The notes beneath the pieces are model-generated. The model was not told the origin of the DNA, ran no database searches, and was given only the letters and a program-made list of their open reading frames with translations. Below are positions 1,349 through 50,726 of a DNA stretch of 64,000 nt, piece after piece (within the stretch, counting starts at the first letter, position 1; each line of letters opens with the position of its first letter). The translations under genes were made by a program, and so were the position numbers. The stretch spans positions 1 to 64,000 of the forward strand of contig JAKPQL010000083.1 in the NCBI GenBank assembly GCA_029547045.1, in the 5' to 3' direction. Source of the stretch: Deltaproteobacteria bacterium (GTDB lineage: Bacteria; Desulfobacterota; Desulfomonilia; UBA1062).

Positions 1349-1357
1349 CTGTGCCTC

Positions 1358-2311: not shown

Positions 2312-2313
2312 GG

Positions 2314-3096: not shown

Positions 3097-3115
3097 ACCG
3101 TATCCTCCTTATCTC

Positions 3116-3865
3116 CTATGCAAGTGTCCCGACGTTGCGCATGGACTGCGAATAGGCTTGGTCGATGGACCTGATCATCCTCTGGAAGGAGTCGTAGGCA
3201 CGCTGCGTGGCGATGAGCTCCACCATCTCCCGCACCGGATCGACATTGGCAGACTCCAGATAGGCCTGCTGGACCCTCGGTTTCTCCACGGGCTCCGGGG
3301 TGAAGCCGGGCTTGACATCGAAAAGGTTGTTCCCCTTCCGGACGAGCGCCTCGGCCGGGATGTTCACCACCTGCAGGGTATCCACATCGGTGTTGTCGTA
3401 GCTGATCTTTCCGTTCATATCGATACCCACCACGCCGTTGCCGGTGGTGAGGTCGATGGAGATGTCACCCCCCTGGCCCTGGACCCGGTACCCCTGGGGG
3501 GTCACGATGATGTTCTCGGTGTTGATCTGGAACGAGCCGGCCCGGGTGTACCGCGGACCGTCGTCGGTGTTCACAACGAAGAAACCCTCCCCGTTCATGG
3601 CCACATCCAGGGGGTTTCCGGTCTGGATGGGTACGCCCGGGGTGGTGTCGATGGAGGGATTCAGGGCGACGACATCGATGGGAACCACCCGGTACTGCCC
3701 CGGGGAAAGCATGGAGGCGTCGAGCACCTTGGAGAACTGCTCGAATCTCACCTGGTCCTTCTTGAACCCGATGGTGTTGAGATTTGCGATATTGTTGGAG
3801 ATGACATTGAGCCTCTCCTCCATGGCAATGGCCCCTGCAGCCGCCGTGTACATTCCCTGGTCCAT
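3116..3865 (-). CDS. flgF: Flagellar proximal rod protein FlgF
   Basis: A 249-residue rod/hook-family protein: MDQGMYTAAAGAIAMEERLN at the N terminus, then SNNIANLNTIGFKKDQVRFEQF. The C terminus has ANVDPVREMVELIATQRAYDSFQRM. The relatedness to FlgG, the length and the position before flgG indicate FlgF. It is the first gene after the sigma-54 promoter at 3892-3907, with an AAGGAGG Shine-Dalgarno sequence just before the ATG and a very short leader of about 16 bases. Confidence 0.93.
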   Translation of the reverse strand: MDQGMYTAAAGAIAMEERLNVISNNIANLNTIGFKKDQVRFEQFSKVLDASMLSPGQYRVVPIDVVALNPSIDTTPGVPIQTGNPLDVAMNGEGFFVVNTDDGPRYTRAGSFQINTENIIVTPQGYRVQGQGGDISIDLTTGNGVVGIDMNGKISYDNTDVDTLQVVNIPAEALVRKGNNLFDVKPGFTPEPVEKPRVQQAYLESANVDPVREMVELIATQRAYDSFQRMIRSIDQAYSQSMRNVGTLA

Positions 3866-3891: not shown

Positions 3892-3907
3892 AGCAAAGGT
3901 GGTGCCA
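3892..3907 (-). promoter_or_regulatory. Sigma-54 promoter for flgF-flgG-flgA-flgH-flgI
   Basis: Read on the minus strand this is TGGCACCACCTTTGCT. It fits the sigma-54 consensus TGGCACG-N4-TTGCW with one mismatch, and the invariant GG and GC have the required 12-base offset. The -12 GC lies about 28 bases upstream of the flgF ATG, so transcription would start near 3881 and yield a leader of about 16 bases carrying the Shine-Dalgarno sequence. Sigma-54 control of rod and ring genes is established in several flagellated Gram-negatives. Confidence 0.85.
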
Positions 3908-34210: not shown

Positions 34211-36346
34211 ATGGCACAACCCGGAGACAAGGGACACGGCAGGGGCGAAGGCCCCCGGGAGGGTACGGCGGAATCCGCACGATCCGTGGATTTCATCCGC
34301 GCCATCATCAACGAGGAGCTCTCCATGGGCAAGCACGGCGGCAGGGTACACACCCGCTTCCCACCGGAGCCCAACGGCTACCTCCACATCGGCCACGCCA
34401 AGTCCATCTGCCTGAACTTCGGCATCGCGGCCGACTATAACGGTCTGTGCAACCTGCGGTTCGACGACACCAACCCTTCCAAGGAGGACCAGGAATACAT
34501 CGACTCCATCATGGAGGATGTCAAGTGGTTGGGCTTCGACTGGGAAAACCGCCTCTACTACGCCTCGGACTACTTCGAGCAGACCTACCGCTTCGCCGAG
34601 GAGCTCATCAAAAAGGGCCTGGCATACGTATGCGACCTGAGCGCCGAGGAGGTGCGGCAGTACCGGGGCACCCTCACCGAGGCGGGGAAGGACAGCCCGT
34701 ACCGGAACCGCAGCGTCGAGGAGAACCTCGACCTGTTCCGCCGCATGCGCTCGGGCGAGTTCCCGGACGGTTCCCGGACCCTGCGGGCAAAAATCGACAT
34801 GGCATCGCCCAACCTGAACATGCGGGACCCGGTCATCTACAGGATCCTTCGGTCCACCCACCACCGCACAGGCGACGACTGGTGCATCTACCCCATGTAC
34901 GACTATGCCCACCCCGTCTCCGACTCCCTGGAGGAGATCACCCACTCCATCTGCACCCTTGAGTTCGAAGACCACCGGCCGCTGTACGACTGGTGCCTGG
35001 AGAAGCTCGGCATCTTCCGTTCCCGGCAGATCGAGTTCGCCCGGCTGAACCTCAGCTACACCCTGATGAGCAAGCGCAGGCTCCTGGAGCTCGTGCAGAT
35101 GGGCATCGTGAGCGGATGGGACGACCCGCGCATGCCCACCATCGCAGGGCTCCGCCGCAGGGGCTGCACCCCTGAAGCCATCAGGGCCTTCTGCGACCGC
35201 ATCGGGGTGGCCAAGAAGGACAGCATGGTGGACATGGCCCTCCTGGAGTTCCACATCCGCGAGGACCTGAACGTCCGAACGCCGCGGATCATGGCCGTGC
35301 TGGAGCCCCTCAAGGTAACCATCGAGAACTATCCCGAAGGCCAAACCGAAGAGTTCGACATCCCCTTCCACCCGGATGACCCCTCCATGGGGAGCCGCGC
35401 CGTCCCCTTCGGCAGGACCCTGTACATCGAGCAGGACGATTTCATGGAGAACCCTCCACCGAAGTACTTCCGCCTCGCACCCGGACGCGAGGTCCGCCTG
35501 CGGGGGGCCTACTTCATCACCTGCACGGGCGTGGTCAAAGACCCCCAGACCGGGCTCGTCACGGAGCTCCGCTGCATCTATGACCCGTCCACCAGGGGGG
35601 GGGACGCGCCCGACGGCCGCAAGGTGAAGGGCACCCTGCACTGGGTTTCGGCCGCGCACGCCGTGCCGGCCCAGGTCCGCCTCTACGAGAGGCTCTTCCT
35701 GGTGGAGAACATCGGCTCCGAGTGCGAGCGCACCGGCAGGGACTACAAGGACTTCCTGAACCCGGACTCGCTGCGCACCCTGAATGGCTGCATGCTGGAA
35801 CCCTCCGTGAAGGGAGCGCCACCCCTGAGCCGGTACCAGTTCGAGCGCCAGGGCTACTTCTGCGTGGACAGCGCGGACTCGAAGCCCGACAGCCTGGTGT
35901 TCAACCGCACCGTGACGCTTCGCGACTCGTGGGCGAAGGTTGAGAAGACCGCTCGCGTTACCAGGGAGACGCCGAAGGCTGCATCGAAAAAGTCCCCTGC
36001 AAAGGGGGCACCCGTGCCGGAGATCACCTTCGACGACTTCGCCAGGCTCGACCTCAGGGTGGGAAGGGTCCTCGAAGCGGCACTGGTGGAGGGCGCGGAC
36101 AAACTCGTGAAGCTGCTCGTGGATGTGGGTGAAGACAGGCCCAGGCAGATCCTTGCAGGCATCCGGAGGGCATACCCCGACCCGGCAGCGCTCGTGGGAA
36201 AGCGTGTCGTGGTGGTGGCCAACCTCAAGCCGCGCGCGATGAAGTCCGGCACCTCCGAGGGCATGATCCTGGCGGGGGGCAGCGGAGACGACTGGCGGGT
36301 CTGCACCTTCGACGGCGAGCCCGAGCCGGGTGACAAGGTCTCCTGA
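34211..36346 (+). CDS. glnS: Glutaminyl-tRNA synthetase with fused C-terminal tRNA-binding domain
   Basis: A 711-residue class I synthetase; ordinary GlnRS is about 550. The catalytic core shows [20 protein letters not shown] (HIGH), [14 protein letters not shown] and the KMSKS-loop equivalent [13 protein letters not shown]. The anticodon-binding barrels end near residue 570. After a Lys/Ala/Pro linker ([13 protein letters not shown]), residues about 605-711 form a Trbp111/EMAP II-type OB fold: [42 protein letters not shown] and [20 protein letters not shown]. The add-on probably increases tRNA affinity. Confidence 0.95.
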
Positions 36347-36457: not shown

Positions 36458-39400
36458 TTGTCCCGAGCCCCTTCATGGGCTGTTCTGCTGGGTTCGGATG
36501 ACATGAAGAAGAGAGAAGGCACAGCCCCTCCGCAGAAGAAACCCGAGAAGGAGACCCCGCGCCAGCGGGTGCTCCTCTCCCAGGTCATCGACTTCCTGCC
36601 CGACCCCACCTTTGCCATCGACCGGGCGGGCAGGGTCACCGTGTGGAACCGGGCCATGGAGGAGATGACCGGGGTGAAGGCCAGGGACATGGTGGGAAAG
36701 GGGGACTACGAGTACGCCGTCCCCTTTTACGGTGAGCGCCGCCCCATCCTCGCGGACCTGGTCCTGCACCCCGACCCGGAGCGGGAAAGGTCCTACTCTT
36801 CCCTGATCCGCCAGGGCGACAGCCTCTATGCCGAGACCATCGGATTGCCTTCCAGGCGGTTTCTCTGGGGAAAGGCGAGCCCCATCCGCGACAGGAGGGG
36901 AACCATCACGGGCGCCATCGAATCGATCCGCGACATCACGGACCACAAGCACATCGAGGAGACCGTCATCAAGAGCGAGGCCAGGTACCGGGACATCTTC
37001 GAGAACGTCTCCGACTACCTCTACCTCCATGACCTCGACGGCGTGTTCATCGAGACGAACTTCGCGAACAAGAAGGAGTCGGGCTTCTCCGAGGAAGAGC
37101 TGAACAGCCTCTCCATCAGGGACCTGCTCCCGGACCGCCACCGGCACCGGTTCCAGAACTACATGAAGAACGTCGTGGACAAGGGGAGAGACGAGGGGTT
37201 CCTCACCATCGTCTTCAAGGACGGGCAGGAACGCGTCCTGGAGTACCGCAACTCGCTCATCACGGACAATCAGGGATGGCCCGTGGCGGTGCGTGGCTCC
37301 GCCCGGGACATCACCGCCAGGCTCAAGGCGCAGAAGGAGCTCAAAAGGGAGCGCGACTTCATCACCACCATCATACAGACCTCTCCCGCCTTCTATGTGG
37401 CGATGGATCCCGCGGGGAGGATCATCCTCATGAACGAGGCCATGCTCGCCTCGCTCAACTACGGTCTCAAGGCCGTCCTCGGACGCGACTTCGTCACCAC
37501 CCTCGTGCACCCCGAAGACCAAGCGTTCATCGCCCGGGGCATCTCCGACATGACCTCGTCAAGCCGATCGACCGTGCTCATGCTCAGGATGATCTCCCGC
37601 GACGGCAGGGACATGCTGGTCCAGTGGCAGTACAAGCCAGTCCACAAAACGGACGGCGGCATCGACTTCATCTTCGGCATGGGCATCGACATCACCGGCC
37701 AGAAACGGGCCGAGGAGCTGGGCCGGATCTCGGAGAAGAAGTTCCAGGCCGCCTTCCATGCCAGCGCCGATCCCATGGCCATCTTCGATCCTCCCACCGG
37801 GAGGATCATCGACGTCAACACCGCTTTTGTCACCTGGTCGGGCTACACCGCGGACGAGGCCATCGGCCGCACCACCATGGACCTGGACATCTGGCAGGAC
37901 CCTTCCGACCGCGACCGGTACATCGGCAGGCTGCGCCTGGGGGAAACCGTGGACAGGGAGGAGGTGCGGCTCAGGAACAGGACCGGGGCCCAATACATAG
38001 TCATCCTGTCCGCTGCCATGGTGGAGGTGGAAGGCAGGTCCTACCTCTTCCTCACGCTCCATGACATCACCGATCTCCGCAATGCCCAGACGAGGCTGGC
38101 CAAGAGTGAGCGGCACTACCGGCTCCTGGCCGAGAATGCCTCGGACGTCATCTGGGTCCTCAACCCGGACCTGACCTACCGGTTCGTGAGCCCGTCCGTG
38201 GAGAACCTGAGGGGGTACACGGTGAAGGAGGTGCTCGGGCAGACCCTCAGAGACGTCCTTACCCCGGAATCGTACCGGAACGCCATGGAGCTCATGCAGC
38301 GGGAACGCCTCCAGGAGGTAAGCGGCCACCGGCACGGCCCCCAGTGGTCCACCACCGCCGAGTTCGAGATGACCCGCAGAGACGGCACCACCGTCTGGAC
38401 CGAGGCGCGGCTGAGCGTGCTGTATGACGACGAGGGAAAGGTTTCGGGCATCCTGGGCATCACCCGGGACATCACCCAGCGAAAACAGGCCGAGACCGCC
38501 CTGAGAGAGCGGCAGCGACAGATGGAGACCCTCATGGGCAACCTGCCCGGCATGGCGTACCGGTGCAGGAACGACGAGAACTGGACCATGGAGTTCGTCA
38601 GCCAGGGGTGCCTCGACATCACCGGATACTCGCCTGAAGACCTCGTGGGGAGCGCCCGGGTGTCCTATGCGGGACTCATCCACCCCGAAGACCGCGACCC
38701 GGTGTGGTCGCAGGTGCAGGAGGCGCTGTCCCGCAGGGAGCATTTCCGCCTCACCTACCGGATCATCCACCGGGACACCGGTGTGCGGTGGGTGTGGGAG
38801 CAGGGCACGGGAGTCCCCGATACGGACGGCAGGGTGGCGTTTCTGGAGGGATTCATCACCGACATCACAGAGCGCAAGCTCGCCGAGGAGGCGCTCAGGA
38901 AAAGCGAGGAGCGCTACCGGCTCCTGGCCGAGAACGTCAGGGACGTGATCTGGGTCCTGGACATGGACCTCCGCTACACTTACATCAGCCCATCGGTGGA
39001 GCGCATGCGAGGATTTACCGTGGAGGAGGCCATGGGAATGCCCCTGGACAAGGTCATGACTCCCGAATTCTACCAGCTCGCACTGACGGTCATCGGGGAG
39101 GAGCTGGAGCGCGAAAGGCATGGCCTCATCCACGACCCCTACTGGTCCCGGACCATCGAAGGGCAGATCTTGCACAAGGACGGGTCCTTCCTCTGGGTGG
39201 AGATAACCGCGACCTTCCTCCGGGATGACGACGGGAACATCACCGGGATCCTGGGCGTCACCCGGGACATCAGCAAGCGCAGGCACGCCGAGGACGTACT
39301 CCAGCAGATCCGCTTCGCGGTGGAACACCTGGGGGAGGAGGCCTTCTGGATCAGCAGGGAGGGACGCTTCATCTATGTGAACGAGGCTTCCTGCAGGGCC

Positions 39401-41206
39401 CTGGGCTGCACCCGCGAGGAACTGCTCTCCATGGGGGTGCAGGACATCGACCCCCTGTTCCAACCGGACCGCTGGCCCGAGCACTGGCAGGAGCTGAAGG
39501 AACGAGGATCTCTGGTCTTCGAGTCCATCCACCGGAGAAAGAACGGCTCCGAGTACCCGGTGGAGATCCAGGCCAACTTCCTGGAGTTCGGCGGCCAGGA
39601 ATTCAACTGGGCCTTTGCCCGGGACATCACGGAGCGCAAACACGCGGACGCCAAGCTCCGCGAGAGCGAGGAGCGGTTCCGGAGGATGGCCGAGGTCAGC
39701 CCGGAGGTCTTCTGGATGACCTCCCCGGACTGGTCCCGGGTCATCTACCTGAGCCCGGCCTTCGAGAAGATCTTCGGCTTTCCGGCTGAGGAGCTCGTCC
39801 AAAACCCGTCGGCATGCCTCGGCCTCATCCACGAGCAGGACAGAGACGCGGTGATCTCATTCTTCAGACGGAGCCAGGGCCCTGACGCGGTGTACGAGTT
39901 TCGCATCGTGCGGCCGGACGGCTCGGTGCGGTGGATCCGCAACAGGCGATCCTCCGTCCTTGACGAGCAGGGAAGGACCATCCTCCTCGTGGGCATCGCC
40001 GAGGACATCACAGAACGGGTGCAGGCAGAGGAGGAGCGCAAGGTATTCGAAGCCCGCCTGGCCAGATCCCAGAAGCTCGAGGCCATCGGGACCCTGGCGG
40101 GCGGCATCGCCCACGACTTCAACAACATCCTGTCCGCGATCATCGGATACTCCGAGCTTGCCCAGGAGGAACTCCCGGCATCCAGCCCGGCCCACGCGAG
40201 CCTTGCAGAGGTCATCCGGGCTGGCGACAGGGCCAAGGACCTGGTGAGGCAGATCCTTACCTTCAGCCGCCAGATGGAGACCGAACGGAAACCGGTCCGT
40301 GTCCAGCTTATCGTGAAGGAGGTCATGAAGCTGCTCCGGTCCTCCATACCGAGGACCATCACGATCAGAGACTCCGTGGATCCGTCTGCAGGACCGGTCT
40401 TTGCTGACCCCACCCAGATCCATCAGGTCATCATGAACCTGTGCACCAATGCCTACCATGCCATGCTCCCCGCTGGCGGCGAGCTCACCATCTCAGTGGA
40501 TTCCGTGTTCCTGGATGCGCATTTCGCCTCCCAGCACCCCGAGCTCAGGGAGGGGGCCTATCTCCGGCTGGCCGTGCAGGACACCGGCACCGGTATGGAC
40601 CCGGAGACCATGAAGCGCATATTCGACCCCTTCTTCACCACCAAGGAAAAGACAAAGGGCACAGGCCTCGGGCTGGCCACGGTGCACGGGATCGTCACGG
40701 ACCTGGGCGGGTCGGTCATGGTGACATCCACCGTGGGTAAGGGGAGCACCTTCGAGGTCTACCTGCCCGTGTCGAAAAAGCAGGAGGACGAGGACGAGGA
40801 ACCCGAGGAAGAACTTGGCAAAGGCAGGGGTCAGACCATCCTCCTGGTGGATGACGAGGAGGCCATCCTCCACTTCACCGGAACCATGCTCGAACAGCTC
40901 GGATACCTGGTCATCAGGACGTCCTCCAGCCTGGAGGCCCTGGGCATGTTCCGATCCAACCCCCAGGGGATCGATCTGGTGATCACCGACCAGACCATGC
41001 CAGGCCTCACCGGCATGGCTCTGGCGTCCGAGATCATCAGGACAAGGCCCGGCATTCCCGTCATCCTCATGACCGGCTACAGCGAGACCGTCTCCCCCGA
41101 GGAAGCCCTTGCCCAGGGCATCGAGGAGTACATCGAGAAACCCTTCACCCGGAGCACCCTGGCCCGATCCGTGCAGCGGTGCCTCAGCGAAAAGAACCGG
41201 CCATGA
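36458..41206 (+). CDS. Soluble hybrid histidine kinase with nine PAS domains and a C-terminal receiver
   Basis: A 1582-residue protein with no membrane segment or signal peptide. Nine PAS-PAC units run in series (residues about 40-1180), each closed by a DIT-like motif (RDITDHKH, RDITARLK, DITGQKRA, HDITDLRN, RDITQRKQ, TDITERKL, RDISKRRH, RDITERKH, EDITERVQ). Then come HisKA (LAGGIAHDFNNILSAIIGYS), the ATPase domain (NLCTNAYHAM, DTGTGMDPET, GTGLGLATVHGI) and a complete receiver (ILLVDDEEA, phospho-Asp in LVITDQTMPG, Lys in IEKPF). TTG at 36458 with GGAGGAAG is the likely start; ATG 36503 is possible. It presumably senses cytoplasmic redox or small ligands. Confidence 0.93.
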   Translation: MSRAPSWAVLLGSDDMKKREGTAPPQKKPEKETPRQRVLLSQVIDFLPDPTFAIDRAGRVTVWNRAMEEMTGVKARDMVGKGDYEYAVPFYGERRPILADLVLHPDPERERSYSSLIRQGDSLYAETIGLPSRRFLWGKASPIRDRRGTITGAIESIRDITDHKHIEETVIKSEARYRDIFENVSDYLYLHDLDGVFIETNFANKKESGFSEEELNSLSIRDLLPDRHRHRFQNYMKNVVDKGRDEGFLTIVFKDGQERVLEYRNSLITDNQGWPVAVRGSARDITARLKAQKELKRERDFITTIIQTSPAFYVAMDPAGRIILMNEAMLASLNYGLKAVLGRDFVTTLVHPEDQAFIARGISDMTSSSRSTVLMLRMISRDGRDMLVQWQYKPVHKTDGGIDFIFGMGIDITGQKRAEELGRISEKKFQAAFHASADPMAIFDPPTGRIIDVNTAFVTWSGYTADEAIGRTTMDLDIWQDPSDRDRYIGRLRLGETVDREEVRLRNRTGAQYIVILSAAMVEVEGRSYLFLTLHDITDLRNAQTRLAKSERHYRLLAENASDVIWVLNPDLTYRFVSPSVENLRGYTVKEVLGQTLRDVLTPESYRNAMELMQRERLQEVSGHRHGPQWSTTAEFEMTRRDGTTVWTEARLSVLYDDEGKVSGILGITRDITQRKQAETALRERQRQMETLMGNLPGMAYRCRNDENWTMEFVSQGCLDITGYSPEDLVGSARVSYAGLIHPEDRDPVWSQVQEALSRREHFRLTYRIIHRDTGVRWVWEQGTGVPDTDGRVAFLEGFITDITERKLAEEALRKSEERYRLLAENVRDVIWVLDMDLRYTYISPSVERMRGFTVEEAMGMPLDKVMTPEFYQLALTVIGEELERERHGLIHDPYWSRTIEGQILHKDGSFLWVEITATFLRDDDGNITGILGVTRDISKRRHAEDVLQQIRFAVEHLGEEAFWISREGRFIYVNEASCRALGCTREELLSMGVQDIDPLFQPDRWPEHWQELKERGSLVFESIHRRKNGSEYPVEIQANFLEFGGQEFNWAFARDITERKHADAKLRESEERFRRMAEVSPEVFWMTSPDWSRVIYLSPAFEKIFGFPAEELVQNPSACLGLIHEQDRDAVISFFRRSQGPDAVYEFRIVRPDGSVRWIRNRRSSVLDEQGRTILLVGIAEDITERVQAEEERKVFEARLARSQKLEAIGTLAGGIAHDFNNILSAIIGYSELAQEELPASSPAHASLAEVIRAGDRAKDLVRQILTFSRQMETERKPVRVQLIVKEVMKLLRSSIPRTITIRDSVDPSAGPVFADPTQIHQVIMNLCTNAYHAMLPAGGELTISVDSVFLDAHFASQHPELREGAYLRLAVQDTGTGMDPETMKRIFDPFFTTKEKTKGTGLGLATVHGIVTDLGGSVMVTSTVGKGSTFEVYLPVSKKQEDEDEEPEEELGKGRGQTILLVDDEEAILHFTGTMLEQLGYLVIRTSSSLEALGMFRSNPQGIDLVITDQTMPGLTGMALASEIIRTRPGIPVILMTGYSETVSPEEALAQGIEEYIEKPFTRSTLARSVQRCLSEKNRP

Positions 41207-41532
41207 GGAACGCGCACACCCTCGTCATCGAAGACGAGGAACGCATCCGGCACACCTTCGGCTCCTTCCTGGCCGGGGAACGACCCGGAGCTGATCCGCG
41301 CCCGGGGAATACCTTCGTGGTGTGCCCTGGAGACACCACGGGCAGGCAGGACCTGTCCCCCGAGACAAGGAGGTTCGAGTCGCCCCCTGATGCCCCTGGG
41401 AAGACGGCCTCCCACGACTGGGAAACGATCCTGCAGGCCCTGCAGAGGAGGGGGCATGAGAAATGGTCTGTGCCGCCGCCGCGGTGGATCAGCCGCCAGA
41501 TTGTGAACCGGAAGATGAGGGAGTACGGATGA
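41203..41532 (+). CDS. Truncated receiver-like protein of unknown function
   Basis: A 109-residue protein starting at an ATGA overlap with the nine-PAS kinase. The first 18 residues (HTLVIEDEERIRHTFGSFL) look like beta-1/alpha-1 of a response-regulator receiver with its acidic residues, but the fold then stops: there is no phosphoacceptor Asp, switch or Lys. The remainder is Pro/Gly-rich, then ends with a basic segment, DWETILQALQRRGHEKWS and WISRQIVNRKMREYG. It may be a decayed response regulator or a short adaptor; translational coupling to the kinase favours that it is made. Confidence 0.55.
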   Translation: MRNAHTLVIEDEERIRHTFGSFLAGERPGADPRPGNTFVVCPGDTTGRQDLSPETRRFESPPDAPGKTASHDWETILQALQRRGHEKWSVPPPRWISRQIVNRKMREYG

Positions 41533-41558
41533 GAGCGCCCTGACAGGCACGTGTACCA

Positions 41559-41598
41559 TGTAACATATCTGTAACAGCGCCACCTGTAACAAGTTACA
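41559..41598. promoter_or_regulatory. TGTAAC repeat array, candidate activator site
   Basis: Direct copies of TGTAAC start at 41559, 41570 and 41585, with an inverted GTTACA at 41593-41598. The last two form TGTAAC-AA-GTTACA. The first two are 11 bases apart, one helical turn. The array is the main feature of the gap before 41758. Confidence 0.5.
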
Positions 41599-41640
41599 GA
41601 TTCCTGCCCCATCTCATGCCTCCAGTCTTGCAGCGATCCT

Positions 41641-41646
41641 TATAAT
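41641..41646 (+). promoter_or_regulatory. Perfect -10 box without a -35, upstream of the CheB-like operon
   Basis: TATAAT at 41641-41646 has no recognisable -35 box at the right distance. With a start near 41653, the TGTAAC/GTTACA palindrome would be centred about 61 bases upstream, the classic position for a class I activator. The leader to 41758 would be about 105 bases and very AT-rich at first. Confidence 0.45.
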
Positions 41647-41757
41647 TAACTGATTTATTTATTTCATTTTTTATGCAATGTACTGGCGCCTGGCCTGGCA
41701 TGCTTTGTGGTACCCAGGGACAGGCGCCAGGGACTCCATGCTCGAGGGAGAGCGTAC

Positions 41758-42180
41758 ATGCAGGACATCAGGACCGTGATCCTTCTCAGGGATGCGCACA
41801 TCGAGACCGTGCTGAACGATGAGTGCGGCCTGGTCCTGCTCGCCTGCATCAGAACCGATGCGGGCTTCCGCTCCACCATGCAGGTCCTGGACACGGTGGC
41901 GGTCTTTTCCGGACCCGGCCTGCTTGTCTGCTGCGCCACCGAAGACCTCCTCCCCTCCCTTGAGCGCCGTTTCGACATACCCGGCACCCCCACCCACCTC
42001 CTGCTGAACCATGGCCGCGTCCTGGACTCGCTCATGGGCAGGACCACGGCGCAAAACCTCATCTCCTTCGTCAGGCCCCACCTTCAGGGGTTCCTGCAGG
42101 CATCAGAAGCCCGAGGAAAACCCGTGCCTGAAGGAAAGGCGCGGGAGGTCCCGAGGGGAAAAAGGATCAAGGCCCCATGA
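41758..42180 (+). CDS. Thioredoxin-fold protein lacking the CxxC motif
   Basis: A 140-residue cytoplasmic protein. The C-terminal half follows the thioredoxin pattern: FDIPGTPTHLLLNHGRVLD supplies the cis-proline loop and beta-4, then LMGRTTAQNLISFVRPHL the last helix. The position of the active-site CxxC is ACIRTDAGF, with one Cys only, so redox activity is unlikely. The tail is basic (VPRGKRIKAP). Start at ATG 41758 with GAGGGAGA. It is the first gene of the set leading to the CheB-like protein, so it may act as a protein-binding adaptor. Confidence 0.65.
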   Translation: MQDIRTVILLRDAHIETVLNDECGLVLLACIRTDAGFRSTMQVLDTVAVFSGPGLLVCCATEDLLPSLERRFDIPGTPTHLLLNHGRVLDSLMGRTTAQNLISFVRPHLQGFLQASEARGKPVPEGKAREVPRGKRIKAP

Positions 42181-42219
42181 TGGGATCCCCTCTCTCCCAT
42201 GCGAAACCGATGGCTCACA

Positions 42220-42257
42220 CCTTCGCCATACCCTCTCCCTCACGCGAAGGAGAGGGT
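42220..42257. repeat. Overlapping inverted repeats before the CheB-like gene
   Basis: CCTTCGC (42220-42226) pairs with GCGAAGG (42244-42250), and ACCCTCTCC (42230-42238) pairs with GGAGAGGGT (42249-42257). The two stems share two bases and cannot both form fully. The CCCTCTCC-GGAGAGGG pattern resembles widespread REP-like intergenic repeats. It lies in the 136-base gap between the thioredoxin-fold gene and 42317. Confidence 0.5.
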
Positions 42258-42316
42258 GTCTTCCGTCGAAGCGGGACGAGCGTGACAGAGACCGGGCCAT
42301 GCCCGGGAGAATCCCC

Positions 42317-43393
42317 ATGAACAGGATAAGGGTGATCATCCTGGACGAGTCCGCCCTGGTGCGGCAGACCCTGAAGGACATCCTCGACGCCGACGAGCGG
42401 ATAGAGGTTGTTGGTACCGCCTCCGAGCCTTCCCTCGCCCTGGCCAGGCTCAGGGACCCTATGGCCGAGGTGATCACCCTGGAGATCCAGATGCCCGGGC
42501 CGGACAGATTCACCCTTTCGTTCAGGAAAGTCTCCCCCCCGGCGGAGGCCACCCTGCAGTCACGCGCCACGGGCGTCCAGCCCCTGGGCAGGGCCCTGGA
42601 ACTCGGCGCCATGGAGGTGATCCACAAGCCTGCCCCGGGCATCAGCGGGATGCTCCGCGAATCGGCCACCCTGCTCTGTGATGCGGTGGTGGCCGCGGCC
42701 CGGGGGCAGAACAGGCGCCTTTCCCTCGACAGGGACCTGATCCAGCCCAAATTCGGCGCAGACGTCATCCTGCCTGCACCGAGACCGGACGGAGCCATGC
42801 CGGTCACGGACAAGGTGGTTGCCATCGGCGCATCCGCAGGCGGCACAGAGGCTCTGAGGATCTTCCTTGAGGCCCTGCCCTGCGACTGCCCGGGCATGGT
42901 CATCGTGCAGCACATGCCCGAGGGCTTCACTGCGGCCTTTGCCAGGCGCCTCGACTCCCTGTGCGCCGTCTCCGTACAGGAAGCCTCCAGCAAAGACCCC
43001 GTGCTGCCGGGCCACGTCCTCATCGCCCCGGGCAACCGCCACCTCCTGCTCAGGCGCAGCGGTTCCCGCTACTTCGTGGAGGTCAGGGGCGGCCCGCTGG
43101 TGTCGCGCCACCGGCCCTCCGTGGACGTGCTCTTCAGGTCCGTGGCCCACTGCGCGGGGATAAACGGCATCGGGATCATCATGACCGGCATGGGAGACGA
43201 CGGGGCCCGTGGTATGCGGGAGATGAAGGAGGCGGGCGCATTCACACTGGCCCAGGACGAACAGTCCTGCGTGGTCTTCGGCATGCCCCAGGAGGCCATC
43301 AAGGCCGGCGGCGTGGACAGGGTGCTCCCTTTGGAGGCCCTGGCCCCCGAGGTCATGCGGCTGTCCCTGCTCGCACGGAAGAAGATGGAGTGA
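42317..43393 (+). CDS. CheB-like protein-glutamate methylesterase with altered receiver
   Basis: A 358-residue protein of CheB architecture. The receiver (residues 1-125) aligns well with CheB (IRVIILDESALVRQTLKDIL, LGRALELGAMEVIHKP) but has Glu56 where CheB has the phosphorylated Asp (VITLEIQMPG), and LDE instead of VDD; the beta-4 switch region is also degraded. Lys104 is kept. The methylesterase domain is complete: Ser173 in GASAGGTEAL, His199 in VQHMPEGFT and Asp295 in MTGMGDDGARGM. The start ATG 42317 follows GGGAGA. It probably demethylates or deamidates a receptor independently of phosphorylation. Confidence 0.88.
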   Translation: MNRIRVIILDESALVRQTLKDILDADERIEVVGTASEPSLALARLRDPMAEVITLEIQMPGPDRFTLSFRKVSPPAEATLQSRATGVQPLGRALELGAMEVIHKPAPGISGMLRESATLLCDAVVAAARGQNRRLSLDRDLIQPKFGADVILPAPRPDGAMPVTDKVVAIGASAGGTEALRIFLEALPCDCPGMVIVQHMPEGFTAAFARRLDSLCAVSVQEASSKDPVLPGHVLIAPGNRHLLLRRSGSRYFVEVRGGPLVSRHRPSVDVLFRSVAHCAGINGIGIIMTGMGDDGARGMREMKEAGAFTLAQDEQSCVVFGMPQEAIKAGGVDRVLPLEALAPEVMRLSLLARKKME

Positions 43394-43398
43394 CGACC

Positions 43399-43953
43399 AT
43401 GGGCCTGAAGACCATCCTCGCCGGATTCCTGACCAGACACCCGGCCCATGACCGCACCCGCCACCCGGACGAGGACAGGGCAGTCGGATGTTGGGCGGAA
43501 CAGCTGCTCGGGGTCGGGGAGAGGCTCGATGCCGTGGTGGCGACCTCAGAGGACCGATTCCTGACCCTGGTGGAACGGCTCCAGGATTTCGAGGACATGA
43601 GTTCACGTTCCCACGAGATGGTGGAGCTCATGAGCGGGGAAGGCATCCGAAAAACAACCGAGGGCCTGCGGGACATCCTGCAGGAGCTCAGGCTGAACCT
43701 GGAGAACCCAGACCACTCCACGGAGCGGACCAGGGCGGTGTTCCACGAGCACCTGCGGGCCATCAGGAGCCTCACCTCCTGCCTTGACGAGTTCGGCATG
43801 CTCGTCATGAACCTCTCCATGATGGGCTTCCTCACCCGGATGGAGAATGCCACCCTCTCTGCGAACTCCGGGGGCTTCGCAAGCCTCAGCGACGACGTGC
43901 GGCTCCTGGCGGACACGATCAAGGCCAAAACTCACCATACGGTCCGGCTCTGA
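43399..43953 (+). CDS. Soluble chemoreceptor-like protein, N-terminal piece (frameshifted)
   Basis: 184 residues from ATG 43399, five bases after the CheB-like stop. It is helical and has no membrane segment or HAMP domain. The end FASLSDDVRLLADTIKAK resembles the chemoreceptor signalling pattern (compare ADEVRKLAE). The frame stops at 43951 within what appears to be the middle of the protein, and homologous-looking sequence continues one frame over. Reading AAA instead of AAAA at 43927-43930 would fuse the two frames into one protein of about 380 residues. Confidence 0.6.
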   Translation: MGLKTILAGFLTRHPAHDRTRHPDEDRAVGCWAEQLLGVGERLDAVVATSEDRFLTLVERLQDFEDMSSRSHEMVELMSGEGIRKTTEGLRDILQELRLNLENPDHSTERTRAVFHEHLRAIRSLTSCLDEFGMLVMNLSMMGFLTRMENATLSANSGGFASLSDDVRLLADTIKAKTHHTVRL

Positions 43954-43957
43954 GTCG

Positions 43958-44545
43958 GTGCACGCGTATCTGGTCCGCGCCCTGGGGGAGATATCCGTCT
44001 TCGAGACCATCAAGGGGGAACAGACGCGCACCATGCTGGACAATGCCTTCAAGAACCACCGGTCCCTTCTGGATAGGCATGCCGCAGCCTCGGGCTCAGC
44101 GCTGCGGATCGATCAGGGCACCCGGAAGATCACAGCCAGCATCGCAGAGATCGTCATGTCCCTGCAGTTCCACGACATCACCCGACAGACGGTTGTCACG
44201 GACCGGCTGGTGGAGAGGCTGAGAGACCTCATCACATCGCTCCACGACATCAACAAGGCCATACGGACCATGCTCTCGGAACTGTGTGACCTGGGCGGAT
44301 CACTCGTGCGGGATACCGAGGACGCGGCGACCCACACCGCGGTTCACCGGGAGATCGAGACGGCACTGAACGGGGTCAGACAGACCCTTGCCGGGATCAT
44401 CGACAATGCCAGGAAGAGAAACCCGGGCGCGCTCCTCGAAGCGTCCTCACCGTTCTTTGCCGCCATCGACCGCCTCTACACCATGGAAAGCGAGCGCGCC
44501 ATACACCTCAGGCACCTCGAGGCTTCATCCGGGAGCAGAGACTAA
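43958..44545 (+). CDS. Soluble chemoreceptor-like protein, C-terminal piece (frameshifted)
   Basis: About 195 residues in the frame +1 to the preceding piece. The tract IAEIVMSLQFHDITRQTVVT is the MxLQFxDITRQ motif found in deltaproteobacterial methyl-accepting proteins and in CheZ-like proteins. Long heptad helices continue to the end (LHDINKAIRTMLSELCDLG, DRLYTMESERAIHL). A GTG at 43958, five bases after the upstream stop, could allow coupled reinitiation, but it lacks a ribosome site. A single-base frameshift in the AAAA run at 43927 is the simplest explanation. Confidence 0.55.
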   Translation: MHAYLVRALGEISVFETIKGEQTRTMLDNAFKNHRSLLDRHAAASGSALRIDQGTRKITASIAEIVMSLQFHDITRQTVVTDRLVERLRDLITSLHDINKAIRTMLSELCDLGGSLVRDTEDAATHTAVHREIETALNGVRQTLAGIIDNARKRNPGALLEASSPFFAAIDRLYTMESERAIHLRHLEASSGSRD

Positions 44546-44765
44546 GCCATGGCCCCGGTCGAAGCAGGCGACACGGGCGGAAACCTGGAGCTGTTCTGAT
44601 GGAAAGACGCTGCAGCAGACATACTTGCCGGGGTGCACCGGAACCCTCCCCTGGGGCCGGGCTGCGTGGGGATGCACCCGGTCACCGGCCGATGGGACTG
44701 CTGAGGGGGCGAACCGGCTGACGCCGGATCGTCCTGACGTTCCATCCATTGGCCCGTTGCCTTGG

Positions 44766-44796
44766 ACCCTGCCCTTACTTCCGGTGGGGTTTTTTT
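44766..44796 (+). terminator. Possible Rho-independent terminator after the chemoreceptor-like gene
   Basis: A short stem (ACCC 44766-44769 / GGGT 44787-44790) is followed by seven Ts ending at 44796. The stem is weak; the T run is the stronger evidence. Confidence 0.35.
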
Positions 44797-44849
44797 CTCC
44801 TGACCCCATGGTCTGCACCGGGGAATGGATGGATCAGGCCCCTCTCTTT

Positions 44850-44869
44850 CTATGGCACGCTCACCATAG
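44850..44869. promoter_or_regulatory. Candidate enhancer site for the sigma-54 promoter
   Basis: CTATGG (44850-44855) and CCATAG (44864-44869) form a perfect 6-base inverted repeat with an 8-base spacer. TATGGCACG occurs twice here (44851 and 44872). The repeat is centred about 150 bases upstream of the predicted start, a typical UAS distance. Confidence 0.4.
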
Positions 44870-44983
44870 ATTATGGCACGGAGACCATTTCGTCTTACTG
44901 TATTACCAGTCTATACGGCACCGGGTATTCTCCACCCCCCGATATAACAGGATGATTCCGTGAGCCGGCCACGGCCTGGTCCC

Positions 44984-45000
44984 TTGGCACAAAACTGGCA
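44984..45000 (+). promoter_or_regulatory. Sigma-54-type promoter before the zinc-ribbon gene
   Basis: TTGGCACAAAACTGGCA has a perfect -24 element and keeps the GG/GC spacing; the -12 element has TGGC in place of TTGC. The start would be near 45012, 40 bases before the ATG at 45052. Confidence 0.6.
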
Positions 45001-45051
45001 GATACATGCGCACAAGGTCAGAAACAGGTTCCACAGGGAAAGGAGATCACC

Positions 45052-45279
45052 ATGCAGACGGCACTGAAGCTTGACAGGTGTGCATGCGGCGTCCATTCCG
45101 ATACATCCTGCGCCGGGTGCGGAGCACCGGTATGCAGGAAATGCGGCCATCAGGAGATCGCATCCACCGATCCGGCGCGCATCGTGGTAATCCACTACTG
45201 CCACACATGCACTGCAGACCCAAAGAAAAACACCTGGGGCACCCTGTACTGGGACGGCCTCAAGGCATTGTATATCTGA
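45052..45279 (+). CDS. Small cysteine-rich, zinc-ribbon-like protein
   Basis: A 75-residue protein with a strong ribosome site (GGAAAGGAG) before the ATG. The metal-ligand pattern is CACGVHSDTSCAGCGAPVC, then RKCG, and HYCHTC near residue 50, giving eight Cys and several His in an arrangement like B-box or cross-brace zinc fingers. There is no signal peptide or membrane helix. It stands alone behind a sigma-54-type promoter. I do not recognise a family; zinc binding is inferred from the motif, and nucleic-acid or protein binding are both possible. Confidence 0.75.
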   Translation: MQTALKLDRCACGVHSDTSCAGCGAPVCRKCGHQEIASTDPARIVVIHYCHTCTADPKKNTWGTLYWDGLKALYI

Positions 45280-45510: not shown

Positions 45511-46929
45511 TCAGCGATCATCCTCCCTGCCCGGCGGCCTGACATCACCCCGTGCGAGGGAGGCCGCAATCCCCGGGATGCAGAGCGCGCTGAAGAACAG
45601 GATGCCCGTACGGAAGGCATGCATGAAGGACCCTGCGGAATCGGGCGTGATCCGTACGTGCCCGATGATCAGGGAGAAGAGCACCAGTACGATCCCCATG
45701 CTGAACGCCTGGCCCGTAATGCGCATGGTGGCGATCATGCTGGATGCCACCCCGTAGTCGGCCCTCGACACGGAGCTCATGACCGCGTTGGTGTTGGGGG
45801 AGGAGAAAAGCGAGAACCCGACGCCGAGGACCACGAGGCAACCCACCAGGACCCCTGTAGCGCTGTTGCCGCCCATGAAGGCGAGGGCCATCAGGCCCGC
45901 TGACGTCACGGCCATTCCTGTGGAGGCCAGGATGCGGGGCTCCAATCGGTCCGACAGGCGCCCCGTCAGGGGGGAGAGCGCGGTCATGACCGCCGGCTGG
46001 GTCACCAGGACAAGCCCTGCCTGAGAAGGGCTCATGCCCTTGACGTACTGGAGAAAAAGGCTGAGCAGGAAGCCGGTGGAGAAGGTGGCGCTGTAATGGA
46101 TGAAAGCGGCCAGGTTCGACCATGCGAATACGCGGTTTTCCTTCAGGAGTCTGAGGTCGAGGACCGGTGAGACGTGGTTCCTCTCCCAGAGCAGGAACCC
46201 GGCCATGGCACAGATGCCCGTGCAGAGGAGCACGATCCCGGTCCGTGCTGGCAGCAGCGAGAACCCGAGCATCAGACAGACAAGGCCCACGGAATAGATG
46301 AGCGACCCCGCGAGGTCGAACCCTCGGGAGACCCTGTCCGCATGGTCTTCCTCGACACAGAACAGCACCATCAGGAACGCGCAGCCCCCCAGCACCGCGG
46401 CCAGCAGAAAGATGCCCTTCCAGCCGAAGCCTTCGGTGAGAACCCCGCCGATGAACGGACCCGCGGTGAGGCCGGCGTACACCGCGCCCACGGTGATGCC
46501 GATGGCACGGCCCCTGCGGGAAGGGCTCGTGACGGCGGTGAGGATGGCCATGGAGGTGCTGAAGATCATGGCCCCGCCAAGGCCCTGGAGGGCACGGAGC
46601 GCCAGGAACATCCAGGCGCCCGGCGCAAGGGGCATGAACAGACTCGTCAGCGAGAAGACGAGGATGCCCGAGACGAAGATCCTCTTTCTGCCCAGGATGT
46701 CGGATGCCCTGCCCAGGGGGAGGAGGAACACGGCCGACGCGATGATGTACGCGGTGGTGACCCAGCCGATGAGCACGGCGTCCATGCCGAAGGACACTCC
46801 GATGGCGGGCAGGGCGATATTCACGGAAGACCCCATGAAGGGCGTGAGGAACGAGGAGATGGAGGCGATGACGAGCACGCTGCCCTCGCCCCCGTGGCCC
46901 TGCCCATGATCCCGCACGGAGCCTCTCAT
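45511..46929 (-). CDS. MFS transporter, EmrB/QacA (DHA2) type
   Basis: A 472-residue integral membrane protein with about 14 hydrophobic segments. The MFS motif A appears as LGRASDILGRKRIFVSG, motif C-like sequence as GAVYAGLTAGPFIGGVLTEG, and the N-terminal helix has SFLTPFMGSSVNIALPAIGV, typical of proton-coupled multidrug exporters. ATG 46929 is taken as start; 46953 is also possible. The gene lies just downstream of an NtrC-type regulator on the same strand (34 bases), so it may be part of that operon. Substrate unknown. Confidence 0.88.
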   Translation of the reverse strand: MRGSVRDHGQGHGGEGSVLVIASISSFLTPFMGSSVNIALPAIGVSFGMDAVLIGWVTTAYIIASAVFLLPLGRASDILGRKRIFVSGILVFSLTSLFMPLAPGAWMFLALRALQGLGGAMIFSTSMAILTAVTSPSRRGRAIGITVGAVYAGLTAGPFIGGVLTEGFGWKGIFLLAAVLGGCAFLMVLFCVEEDHADRVSRGFDLAGSLIYSVGLVCLMLGFSLLPARTGIVLLCTGICAMAGFLLWERNHVSPVLDLRLLKENRVFAWSNLAAFIHYSATFSTGFLLSLFLQYVKGMSPSQAGLVLVTQPAVMTALSPLTGRLSDRLEPRILASTGMAVTSAGLMALAFMGGNSATGVLVGCLVVLGVGFSLFSSPNTNAVMSSVSRADYGVASSMIATMRITGQAFSMGIVLVLFSLIIGHVRITPDSAGSFMHAFRTGILFFSALCIPGIAASLARGDVRPPGREDDR

Positions 46930-46963
46930 GACACTGCACCGGATGCCCGGCATCCCCGGACGC

Positions 46964-48403
46964 CTACGGCAGCCTCTCCCGCTTCCTGGTGAGCCCGTAC
47001 TTCTCCACCTTGAGGTAGAACGTCTTGTAGTTCAGCCCAGACTCGCGGGCCGCTTCGGCGATGACCCCCCCGTGCTTCTCCAGCAGGTGGGCGAAGTACC
47101 TCCGCTCGAACTGCTCGAGGATGGCCTTCTTGATGGCGTGGTAATCGTTCCCCTCACCCGCATCCACGAGGATGGAGGGTTCCTCGGGGGCGGACGCGGC
47201 CTTTTCGCCGCCCGCCTGGGCGAGGATCCGGCCGAGTTCAGGGAAGTCCGTGATGAGTTCGGCGCGCGTGGACACCATGGCGTGCTGGATGATGTTCTCC
47301 ATCTCCCGGACATTGCCCGGCCATGAGTAGGCCTCGAGCTGCGCCATGGCGGCGCTCGAGATCCCGCGCACCGGGGAAGCGAGCTTCTTGGAGTACTTGC
47401 CGATGAAGTGCCCGGCGAGCCTCGATATGTCCTCCCTGCGTTCCCGCAGCGGCGGCACGATGATGGGCAGGACGCTGATGCGGTAGTAGAGGTCTTCCCG
47501 GAAGACCTCCTTGCGGATCATGTCCTGGACGGGCCGGTTCGTGGCGCAGATGACCCGGAAGTCGAGCTCGATCTCGCGGTTGCTGCCGAGCCGGGTGATC
47601 CGGTGGTCTTCCAGCACGCGCAGGATCTTGGCCTGGAGATCCAGCGGGATGTCGCCGATCTCGTCCAAGAAGATGGTGCCGGTGTGCGCCTTCTCGAATT
47701 TTCCGATGCGCTGGCTGATGGCCCCGCTGAAGGCGCCCTTCTCGTGGCCGAAGAACTCGGACTCCAGCAGGTTCACCGGGATGGCGGCGCAGTTGATCAC
47801 CACGAAGGGCTTGGAGCGGCGGTCGCTGCGCGAGTGGATGGACCGGGCGATGAGTTCCTTTCCGGTACCGGTCTCGCCCAGGATGAGCACGGTGAGGTCC
47901 GTCTCTGCGGCGGTGAGGATCTGCTCGTAGAGACGCTGCATCTTCGGGTGGGACCCCACGAGCTGGTCGAGGCCCTCGGTGTGCTGCTGGATCTGCCCCT
48001 TGAGCTCGATGTTCTCCTTCAGGATCTCGTGCTGCCTGAGCATCTTGGTGAGCGAGATCTCCAGGGTGTCCATGTTGAAGGGTTTTTCCAGGAAGTCGTA
48101 GGCCCCGTACTTCATGGCCTCCACTGCCCCGGATATGCTCCCGAAGGCCGTGACCACCACAACGTACGTCGTGGGGTAGCGGTTGTGGATCTCCCTGAGC
48201 AGTGCATACCCGTCCATGCGGGGCATCTTGATGTCGGTGATGACGATGTCGTGGCGGACCGCCTCGATCTTCTCCAGGGCATCGAGGCCGTCGCACGCCG
48301 TGTCTATCTGGAGTTCGAGGCTGGACTGCTCCAGGGCGTCCCGGAGCTGCTCGAGGAAGACCTCTTCGTCATCAACGAGCAGGATTTTTTTTCTTTCTTC
48401 CAC
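46964..48403 (-). CDS. NtrC-family sigma-54-dependent response regulator
   Basis: A 479-residue protein. The receiver has ILLVDDEEVFLEQL, Asp in IVITDIKMPRMDG and Lys in FLEKPF. The AAA+ domain has Walker A LGETGTGKELIARSIH, the sigma-54 contact loop GAFSGA (Ser for the usual Thr of GAFTGA), Walker B GTIFLDEIGDIP and the switch region. A Fis-type helix-turn-helix ends the protein (AARESGLNYKTFYLKVEKYG). The start is GTG 48403 with GAGG upstream, overlapping the kinase gene by 32 bases. Confidence 0.94.
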   Translation of the reverse strand: MEERKKILLVDDEEVFLEQLRDALEQSSLELQIDTACDGLDALEKIEAVRHDIVITDIKMPRMDGYALLREIHNRYPTTYVVVVTAFGSISGAVEAMKYGAYDFLEKPFNMDTLEISLTKMLRQHEILKENIELKGQIQQHTEGLDQLVGSHPKMQRLYEQILTAAETDLTVLILGETGTGKELIARSIHSRSDRRSKPFVVINCAAIPVNLLESEFFGHEKGAFSGAISQRIGKFEKAHTGTIFLDEIGDIPLDLQAKILRVLEDHRITRLGSNREIELDFRVICATNRPVQDMIRKEVFREDLYYRISVLPIIVPPLRERREDISRLAGHFIGKYSKKLASPVRGISSAAMAQLEAYSWPGNVREMENIIQHAMVSTRAELITDFPELGRILAQAGGEKAASAPEEPSILVDAGEGNDYHAIKKAILEQFERRYFAHLLEKHGGVIAEAARESGLNYKTFYLKVEKYGLTRKRERLP

Positions 48404-50726
48404 GAATGTCCTCGCTGTCGTTCCGGCCTGCGCCGGCCTCACGCTCCCCGGCCGATGCCCTCGCCGGCCCTCCCTGCTCACGGGGGAGCCTGATCACGAA
48501 CTCCGTGCCCCTACCCTTTTCGCTTCTCGCCTCGATCTCGCCGTGGTGCATGTCGATGACCTTCATGACCAGTGCCAGTCCCAGGCCTGTCCCCTTCGCC
48601 TTCTTCGTGAAGAACGGCTGGAAGATCCTGGCCAGGTCCTCCTGCTCGATGCCCGATCCCGTATCGGCGAGGCGGATCTCCACTGCGTCCTCGCAGAAGG
48701 TCTCCGTACCGCGGCTGAATGTATGGCGCTTGATCACGGCGGTGGATATCCTGAACGTGCCGCCCTCGGGCATGGCGTCCAGCGCGTTCTCGATGATGTT
48801 CTCGAAGACCTGGCGGAGCTGGATGCCGTCCGCCACCACGGTGTCCGCGTCCGGGTCGAAGGATGTCTCCACGCGGACCCGGCGCCTCTCGAGGGCCTCG
48901 GTCTGGTTGAAGAGCAGTCCTTCGACGATGTTGCTGATGCGGTGTGGCCTGGGCCGCAGCTCGCCCGTGCGGGTCCATTCGAGGATCTGGGTGACGAATT
49001 TCTCCAGGTTGTCCACCCCGTTCCTCACGCCCTCGAGCTGCCTGCGCTGGCGGGCGTCCATGGCCAGCGATCCGGAGAGCAGCTCCACGCCGGTCTTGAT
49101 CTTCTGGAGGGGGTTGCGCACCTCGTGGGCCACATGCGCGGACATCTCGCCCAGGATGGCCATCTTCCTCGCCTGCTCCAGGTCGCGCTGCATCTGTTTG
49201 ACCTCGGTGATGTCCATGATGGACACGATGCTCTGCATGGTGCCGGGGATCATGCCGATGGTGAGGAAGGACTCCCGGATGCGGCCGAACTTGTCCCGGA
49301 AGCGGAACTCATACTGGGACGGCACGTCCGGCGCACCCTGGCGTCTGGCCTTGGAGTAGGCCTTCATCCGTTCCACGTCCTCGGGGTGCACCACCTCGGT
49401 CCAGCGCATCTTCCCGATGATCTCCTCCTTGGTGAAGCCGCTGAGCCGCTCCATCTGGTTGTTGGCAAAGGTGACCGTGTAGTCTTCGTCCAGGATCATC
49501 ATGGCAGTGCCGGTGTGCTCCACGGTGGCGCGGTACTTGGCCTCGCTGGCGCGGAGCGCCTTCTGGGCCTCGCGCTTCTCCGTGATGTCGCGGATCACGT
49601 TCTGCGTGGCCGGCCTGCCCTCGTACTCGATGACCGAGGGCGTGATCTCGAAGGCCCGCCAGTTCTCGTCCCTGCTCTTCAGCGCGATCTCGTACTGCTC
49701 GGGCACCTTCTCACCCCGGATGCGCTTGTCGTAGCGGGCCTCGATCATGTGCGCGAGTTCGGGCCGCACGATATCCTTGAGGCCCATGTCCGCGATCTCC
49801 TCCTCGGAGTATCCCAGGAGCTCCCGGAAGGCCGGGTTCGTGTACCTGAACCGGTGGTCCTGGTAGACGAAGATGCCGTCAGCGGTCTTCTCCACGAGCA
49901 TCCGGTACTTCTGCTCGGACTCCTTCAGCCTGTTCTCCACGGCCTTCATGGGCCGCAGATCGCGGAACACGCTGATGGCCGCCACGGGCCTGCCCTCGGA
50001 ATAGAGGTACGAGATGGACAGCGAGATGGGGATGAGGGTCCCGCCCTTGGAGTGGACCCACGTCTCCTCGCCCACGACCCAGCGCGGGTTCTCCTCGGTG
50101 CCCTCGTCCAGGATGGCCAGGATCCGGTCGCGTTCGCCCTCCACCAGGAACTGGGCGATGTTGGTCCTGTGGCTGAGCATGTCGTCTGCGCTGAACCCCG
50201 TGATCTCCTCGGCGGCCCGGTTGAAGATGAGCGCCCTGCCCTTCAGGTCCGAGGCCACGATGGCGTCCGACGAGCTGGCGATGAGTCCTGCCAGGAACTT
50301 GTTCGAGGACTCCATGCTCTGCTCCATCCCCTTGCGCCGGGTGATGTCGCGGCAGATGTTCAGGGTGGCGGGAATGCCCCCCGAGAGCTTGATGGCCGAG
50401 GTGGACAGGGAGATGGTGCGCTCATTGCCGGCCTTGGTGACGAAGATCATGTCGAGCCTGCGGGGGCGGACCTCGTCGCCGTTGATGAAGGCCTCGCAGC
50501 GCTTTTCCATGGGTCGCCACGCGTCCTTGTGCATGACGTCCCTGAAGCCCATCTCCTCGAGTTCCTCGGCCGAGTATCCGAGCATCCGCTCGAAGGCGGG
50601 GTTTACATAATGGAAGCGCCCTCCCTGGTAGACGAAGATGCCCTCGTAGGCCATCTCCACGATAGTCTCGTAGATGGCCTTGCTGAACTTCTTCGACTTC
50701 AGGTGCGCGGCGTCGTGGGCATGCAT
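48372..50726 (-). CDS. Four-PAS sensor histidine kinase, partner of the NtrC-type regulator
   Basis: A 784-residue soluble kinase. Four PAS domains (residues about 15-135, 140-265, 270-390, 395-520) each carry a YTNPAF-like or IFNRAAE core; the first and third are notably alike (GIFVYQGGRFHYVNPAFERM and GIFVYQDHRFRYTNPAFREL). Then HisKA with phospho-His in AHVAHEVRNPLQKIKTG and the ATPase domain (ENIIENALDAMPEGG, DTGSGIEQED, GTGLGLALV). The C-terminal tail is basic. The overlap with the regulator gene shows they form a two-component pair. No Shine-Dalgarno sequence precedes the ATG. Confidence 0.92.
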   Translation of the reverse strand: MHAHDAAHLKSKKFSKAIYETIVEMAYEGIFVYQGGRFHYVNPAFERMLGYSAEELEEMGFRDVMHKDAWRPMEKRCEAFINGDEVRPRRLDMIFVTKAGNERTISLSTSAIKLSGGIPATLNICRDITRRKGMEQSMESSNKFLAGLIASSSDAIVASDLKGRALIFNRAAEEITGFSADDMLSHRTNIAQFLVEGERDRILAILDEGTEENPRWVVGEETWVHSKGGTLIPISLSISYLYSEGRPVAAISVFRDLRPMKAVENRLKESEQKYRMLVEKTADGIFVYQDHRFRYTNPAFRELLGYSEEEIADMGLKDIVRPELAHMIEARYDKRIRGEKVPEQYEIALKSRDENWRAFEITPSVIEYEGRPATQNVIRDITEKREAQKALRASEAKYRATVEHTGTAMMILDEDYTVTFANNQMERLSGFTKEEIIGKMRWTEVVHPEDVERMKAYSKARRQGAPDVPSQYEFRFRDKFGRIRESFLTIGMIPGTMQSIVSIMDITEVKQMQRDLEQARKMAILGEMSAHVAHEVRNPLQKIKTGVELLSGSLAMDARQRRQLEGVRNGVDNLEKFVTQILEWTRTGELRPRPHRISNIVEGLLFNQTEALERRRVRVETSFDPDADTVVADGIQLRQVFENIIENALDAMPEGGTFRISTAVIKRHTFSRGTETFCEDAVEIRLADTGSGIEQEDLARIFQPFFTKKAKGTGLGLALVMKVIDMHHGEIEARSEKGRGTEFVIRLPREQGGPARASAGEREAGAGRNDSEDIRGRKKKNPAR

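Follow-up and report, generated by a model that had tools for sequence, protein, structure and literature searches.

A probable decaying remnant of a standard chemosensory gene cluster beside a nine-PAS hybrid kinase gene

Judged from synteny and alignment, the locus between the gene for glutaminyl-tRNA synthetase (GlnRS; 34211–36346) and that for a minus-strand MFS transporter (45511–46953) is very probably (roughly 0.92) a copy of a standard chemosensory cluster, partly deleted and in decay. A preliminary description of this DNA had read the same genes either as a non-chemotactic Che-derived pathway with constitutive receptor modification or as a pathway in decay, and knew of no described system with such a composition. 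Decay is the reading borne out by our analysis: the locus carries several independent lesions, and the corresponding site in relatives is in some cases intact and in others half-deleted, empty or left with the kinase alone. The first reading finds no support, as all genes but that for the zinc protein belong to one complete cluster in relatives. The composition appears unprecedented only because it is the remainder of an ordinary cluster after deletions, and no part of the locus calls for a novel type of system. The suggestion of a hitherto undescribed Che pathway without CheA is thereby disposed of as a false lead.

Genes and Remnants at the Locus

The window, by which we mean the whole 64,000-nucleotide stretch analyzed, is part of contig C127 in a 2.97-Mb draft assembly of 148 contigs (92% complete, contamination 3.77%). 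The locus and its flanks comprise the following features:

34211–36346, plus strand: GlnRS (Pfam tRNA-synt_1c, E 2.5e-112); conserved left flank, outside the locus.
36503–41206, plus strand: soluble hybrid histidine kinase with nine PAS, HisKA, HATPase_c and a receiver with its Asp; appears intact.
41203–41532, plus strand: remnant of an NtrC-type response regulator, 109 codons, overlapping the kinase stop by 4 nt.
41758–42180, plus strand: thioredoxin (Trx)-fold-like protein (orthologues at E 1e-10 to 1e-19, alignment).
42181–42316, plus strand: deletion scar, the site of MCP, CheW, CheR and CheD in intact clusters (gene order in L130, L133, L134 and L141).
42317–43393, plus strand: CheB with a decayed receiver and an esterase domain (PF01339, E 4.2e-67 to 1.5e-66).
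43399–44599, plus strand: FHDITRQ receptor-like pseudogene, in two frames (alignment).
44600–44984, plus strand: site of CheY and CheA in intact clusters; no reliable remnant.
44985–45000, plus strand: sigma-54-type −24/−12 site TGGCAC-N5-TGGCA upstream of the zinc gene, outside the che remnant.
45052–45279, plus strand: 75-aa Cys-rich zinc-ribbon-like protein; independent gene.
45511–50726, minus strand: MFS transporter, NtrC-type regulator and PAS kinase; conserved right flank, outside the remnant.

The kinase is as first described, cytoplasmic and with nine PAS stretches (Pfam and NCBIfam); its preferred start is the ATG at 36503, and no stretch of the protein is hydrophobic enough for a membrane helix. 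It shares the PAS array, HisKA, HATPase_c and C-terminal receiver with CckA-, VirA- and FixL-like PAS hybrid histidine kinases but scores under the cut-offs of those families, has nine PAS and no longer has a cognate regulator beside it. Because only 1 of 109 positions that never vary among relatives is changed in its catalytic core, the kinase is most likely functional even though its regulator has been gutted. The short open reading frame that overlaps its stop codon, previously taken for a coupled receiver fragment, does exist, but its identity is that of an internally deleted NtrC-type regulator. The first ∼26 codons are fused in one frame to the last ∼100, the middle ∼430 to 470 codons having been deleted (the orthologous regulator in G002 has 572 aa), and both ends match orthologous regulators in tblastn comparisons (N-terminal part, E 2.5e-4 to 1e-3; C-terminal part, E 5e-11).

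The Trx-fold protein is an ordinary member of the family that intact clusters encode between NtrC and MCP. Earlier called Cys-less, it has four Cys, though none of them as CXXC, and the thioredoxin active site is absent. Between its reading frame and CheB, the block from MCP to CheD, ∼4 kb long in G002, is reduced to 136 nt. Remnants of MCP, CheW, CheR, CheD, CheY and CheA were sought in the gaps of the locus and only chance-level matches were found; a search for direct repeats flanking the deletions yielded none that convinced. The scar between the Trx-fold gene and CheB contains a palindrome (42230–42257). We considered and rejected a mobile repeat at this place, the palindrome being single-copy in this genome and absent from four congeners.

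The window CheB has Glu at the phosphoacceptor position, as originally noted, where all ten other aligned CheBs have Asp, but the degradation spans the receiver and is not confined to one residue. With invariant positions defined from ten intact homologues, 34 of 66 are lost in the receiver, the phospho-Asp among them (intact homologues lose 0 to 2 of 32 to 34), compared with 15 of 117 in the esterase domain (intact homologues, 0 to 3), and the two domains differ strongly in their erosion (Fisher P 2.8e-8). Twenty-two of the 34 receiver losses cluster in columns 61 to 100 and could stem from one local event. A frameshift hidden behind the receiver was rejected as its cause, the other two frames, inspected by eye, containing nothing CheB-like. 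Relative to the CheB chemotaxis methylesterases (PF01339 with receiver PF00072), the window protein thus shares the esterase with its Ser, His and Asp, the catalytic residues being retained in the alignment, but lacks the phospho-Asp and the surroundings of the phosphorylation site. In the full-length tree its end branch measures 1.25, about eight times the median of 0.15, and because of this length the tree gives no firm position relative to the CheBs of C109, G001 and G002. Since the esterase is less eroded, its catalytic residues are kept and the codon-position GC of the gene is still gene-like, some residual selection on CheB may conceivably persist.

The receptor-like gene had been reported as frameshifted, and a frameshift is indeed present near 43935, but the lesions are more numerous. 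A deletion of ∼210 codons at ∼44195–44201 has removed the MCP-like hairpin, and a premature TAA (44543–44545), 17 codons before the original end, has removed the conserved DNVELF-type tail. The pieces match residues 25–179, 184–266 and 476–605 of an intact 605-aa homologue, with one TAA. Lacking both hairpin and C-terminal tail, the window copy is unlike its intact homologues and unlike soluble MCP-like proteins and CheZ. The lesions are probably recent, because the remaining residues are conserved about as well as in intact members.

The last gene of the stretch, encoding the Cys-rich zinc-ribbon-like protein behind a sigma-54-type promoter, was correctly recognized as such: an open reading frame of 75 aa follows a −24/−12-type site. 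Homologues occur in 21 of 24 family genomes, and among the 24 zinc homologues examined, window included, 23 have such a site (GG-N10-GC) 46 to 70 nt upstream. In G003 and G004 the zinc gene adjoins GlnRS and is thus kept where the che genes are lost. On this pattern, it is a separate gene with a predicted sigma-54 promoter of its own, unrelated to the cluster.

Taken as a chemosensory system, the locus is without CheA, without MCP and CheW, and without the CheR of a CheR/CheB pair, and its receptor-like gene has no hairpin. The reported absence of CheA, CheW, CheR and CheY is accurate for the site itself; complete Che sets are encoded on contigs C109 and C77 of the same assembly. C109 carries a full MCP-CheW-CheR-CheD-CheB-FHDITRQ-CheY-CheA set and C77 a different che set, each with its own normal CheB as well as receptors and CheR, and CheA homologues are found on these two contigs only, none in the window. 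The tetranucleotide signature of C109 is compatible with the genome of the window, and the contig ends inside an MCP gene; it could in principle derive from a close relative within the assembly. The start of the window encodes flagellar genes of FlgH, FlgA and FlgF/FlgG type (653–3865), which makes chemotaxis proper plausible for the organism. Two more sigma-54-type sites are present at 1385–1400 and 3892–3907 on the minus strand, the same strand as these flagellar genes.

Intact Clusters and Stages of Loss in Related Genomes

Whole-genome searches located the receptor-like and Trx-fold proteins on the same contig and within a few kilobases of each other in several relatives, and the stretches between and around the two genes turned out to be a complete chemosensory cluster, the full order of which was read in the congener G002: PAS hybrid kinase, NtrC-type regulator, Trx-fold protein, MCP, CheW, CheR, CheD, CheB, FHDITRQ receptor-like protein, CheY and CheA. 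At least nine related genomes (G001, G002, G011, G013, G014, G017, G018, G019 and G020) carry the full set, mostly at the same site, although some of the nine clusters are split across contigs. The CheB, Trx-fold and receptor genes, whose conserved co-occurrence the preliminary description had looked to as the sign of a system of their own, accordingly sit in a full Che cluster, mostly at the same position, a result that by its own terms counts against such a system. No conserved reduced gene set was found among the relatives: each has the complete cluster, a different portion of it or none at all. Outside these taxa, nearly all of 80 loci encoding close CheBs have other che genes nearby.

The surroundings of the cluster are conserved as well. 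In G002, G003, G004, G007, G012, G014, G017 and G020, the neighbor of GlnRS is either the kinase or the zinc gene; the block of MFS, NtrC and kinase genes is also present in G002, G003, G004, G007, G014, G017 and G020, and its regulator and kinase in G001. In G014, G017 and G020, the cluster lies between GlnRS on the left and the MFS/NtrC/kinase block on the right, matching the window on both sides. In G001 the cluster is in place, and to its right are the zinc gene together with the NtrC and kinase genes; in G019 the MFS gene is on that side. Since the window shares these flanks (GlnRS left, MFS-NtrC-kinase right) and the gene order with the intact clusters, we read it as the site of such a cluster with pieces missing. 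Compared with the family clusters of G002 (L130, contig C58), G019 (L133, contig C17) and the contig C109 of its own assembly (L128), the gene types and their order are the same, with identities of 56 to 61% for CheB and 42 to 47% for the N-terminal part of the FHDITRQ protein; unlike them, the window has no MCP, CheW, CheR, CheD, CheY or CheA, and its NtrC, CheB receiver and FHDITRQ gene are damaged.

Other relatives have lost more at the site. In the congeners G003 and G004, GlnRS is followed directly by the zinc gene and then the MFS/NtrC/kinase block, the cluster being wholly gone; in G002 the PAS kinase stands alone at the site, the full set lying elsewhere (C58); and in G012 the site is empty. 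In a tree built from the regulator and kinase of the right flank, the window falls together with G002, G003 and G004. One chromosomal site is thus seen across a bacterial family intact, half-deleted, eroding, with the kinase only and empty, a natural series that illustrates the loss of a chemosensory system and the survival of one part of it, the sensor kinase. Among the papers searched, none was directly useful on how che clusters decay, or on a receptor family resembling CheZ, in these organisms.

In G007, a member of another genus, the cluster (L145, contig C59) retains the kinase, NtrC, Trx-fold, MCP and CheW genes and lacks those for CheR, CheD, CheB, the FHDITRQ protein, CheY and CheA, a half-deletion that arose independently; CheB was not found anywhere in the G007 genome. 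The kinase beside the relocated cluster of G002 has an in-frame stop in its ATP-binding region (L130:2925–2927), and the G002 kinase at the ancestral site (L174) is an open frame.

Probable Course of Decay and Alternative Explanations

By synteny, the ancestral order at the site was GlnRS, PAS hybrid kinase, NtrC, Trx-fold, MCP, CheW, CheR, CheD, CheB, FHDITRQ, CheY, CheA and then the zinc gene or MFS. The alignments show that deletions took the genes from MCP to CheD, those for CheY and CheA, and the central part of NtrC, that the receiver of CheB eroded, and that the FHDITRQ gene was broken by frameshift, deletion and stop. The second che copy on C109 probably made the site redundant, and this redundancy is the simplest reason for decay here. 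Conservation suggests that the kinase has survived the loss of its regulator and probably still works, with another output. The leftover CheB and receptor-like fragments, by contrast, most likely have no role as a pathway, because CheA, a coupling protein, a methyltransferase and a receptor are all missing from the locus.

A single functional alternative for the Che genes is compatible with the data; it grants the decay of the rest and has CheB retained as a constitutive, phosphorylation-independent methylesterase acting on the receptors of C109 or C77. CheB freed of its receiver is active. The window protein is 56 to 60% identical to intact homologues, its Ser, His and Asp are kept, its esterase is far less eroded than its receiver, and C109 and C77 encode receptors and CheR. 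However, the esterase itself breaks 15 of 117 invariant positions against 0 to 3 in intact homologues, the gene lies just after the scar of the deletion in which the rest of its operon disappeared, normal CheBs are encoded on both C109 and C77, and none of ten aligned orthologues has a comparable receiver. We therefore hold retention of CheB to be unlikely. An extended version, in which a CheB free of phospho-control would serve the second array as a permanently active methylesterase of its receptors, the nine-PAS kinase having been rewired to another regulator, we give only a slim chance; if true, the locus would be a functional leftover and not debris.

That the gaps and lesions are artefacts of the draft assembly, the cluster being intact in the living organism, is very improbable. 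With 148 contigs and 92% completeness errors are to be reckoned with, and the frameshift alone could be one, but the deletions and the stop together could not. Moreover, the site is internal to one contig of 67.6 kb, the CheB receiver differs by substitutions and the two ends of NtrC are joined in frame, neither being a mere shift of frame, and congeners have larger losses at the same site. A dedicated non-chemotactic pathway of the nine-PAS kinase, Trx-fold, CheB, receptor-like and zinc proteins has almost no probability left: the genes are closely spaced on one strand and the kinase core is strongly constrained, but the receptor-like gene is broken in three ways, the regulator of the kinase is gutted, the zinc gene is served by a promoter of its own and persists where the other genes are gone, and the same genes in relatives are parts of a complete Che cluster, which refutes this reading in the main.

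Receptor-Like Family with a CheZ-Like Motif

The intact homologues of the receptor-like pseudogene (L128:13092–14909, L130:11255–13099 and L041:2390–4222) form a separate lead. They combine an MCP hairpin, a QFHDITRQ (DxxxQ) segment, a flexible linker and a near-invariant C-terminal DNVELF tail, and the gene adjoins cheY in the clusters read. The hairpin is matched clearly (2ch7, E 2.7e-21), and DxxxQ is the phosphatase motif of CheZ (PMC7750401). The active-site region of CheZ was matched weakly in 11 of 16 members of the family, the best match at E 8.6e-6 and under the Pfam CheZ cut-off. A structure model (pLDDT 78, pTM 0.53) is a long helical bundle resembling MCPs and generic coiled coils, with CheZ absent from its best 50 fold matches, and the genome encodes a clear CheZ on another contig (C16). 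From its motif and gene neighborhood, this receptor-like family with a CheZ-like motif beside cheY is a candidate CheY-P phosphatase.
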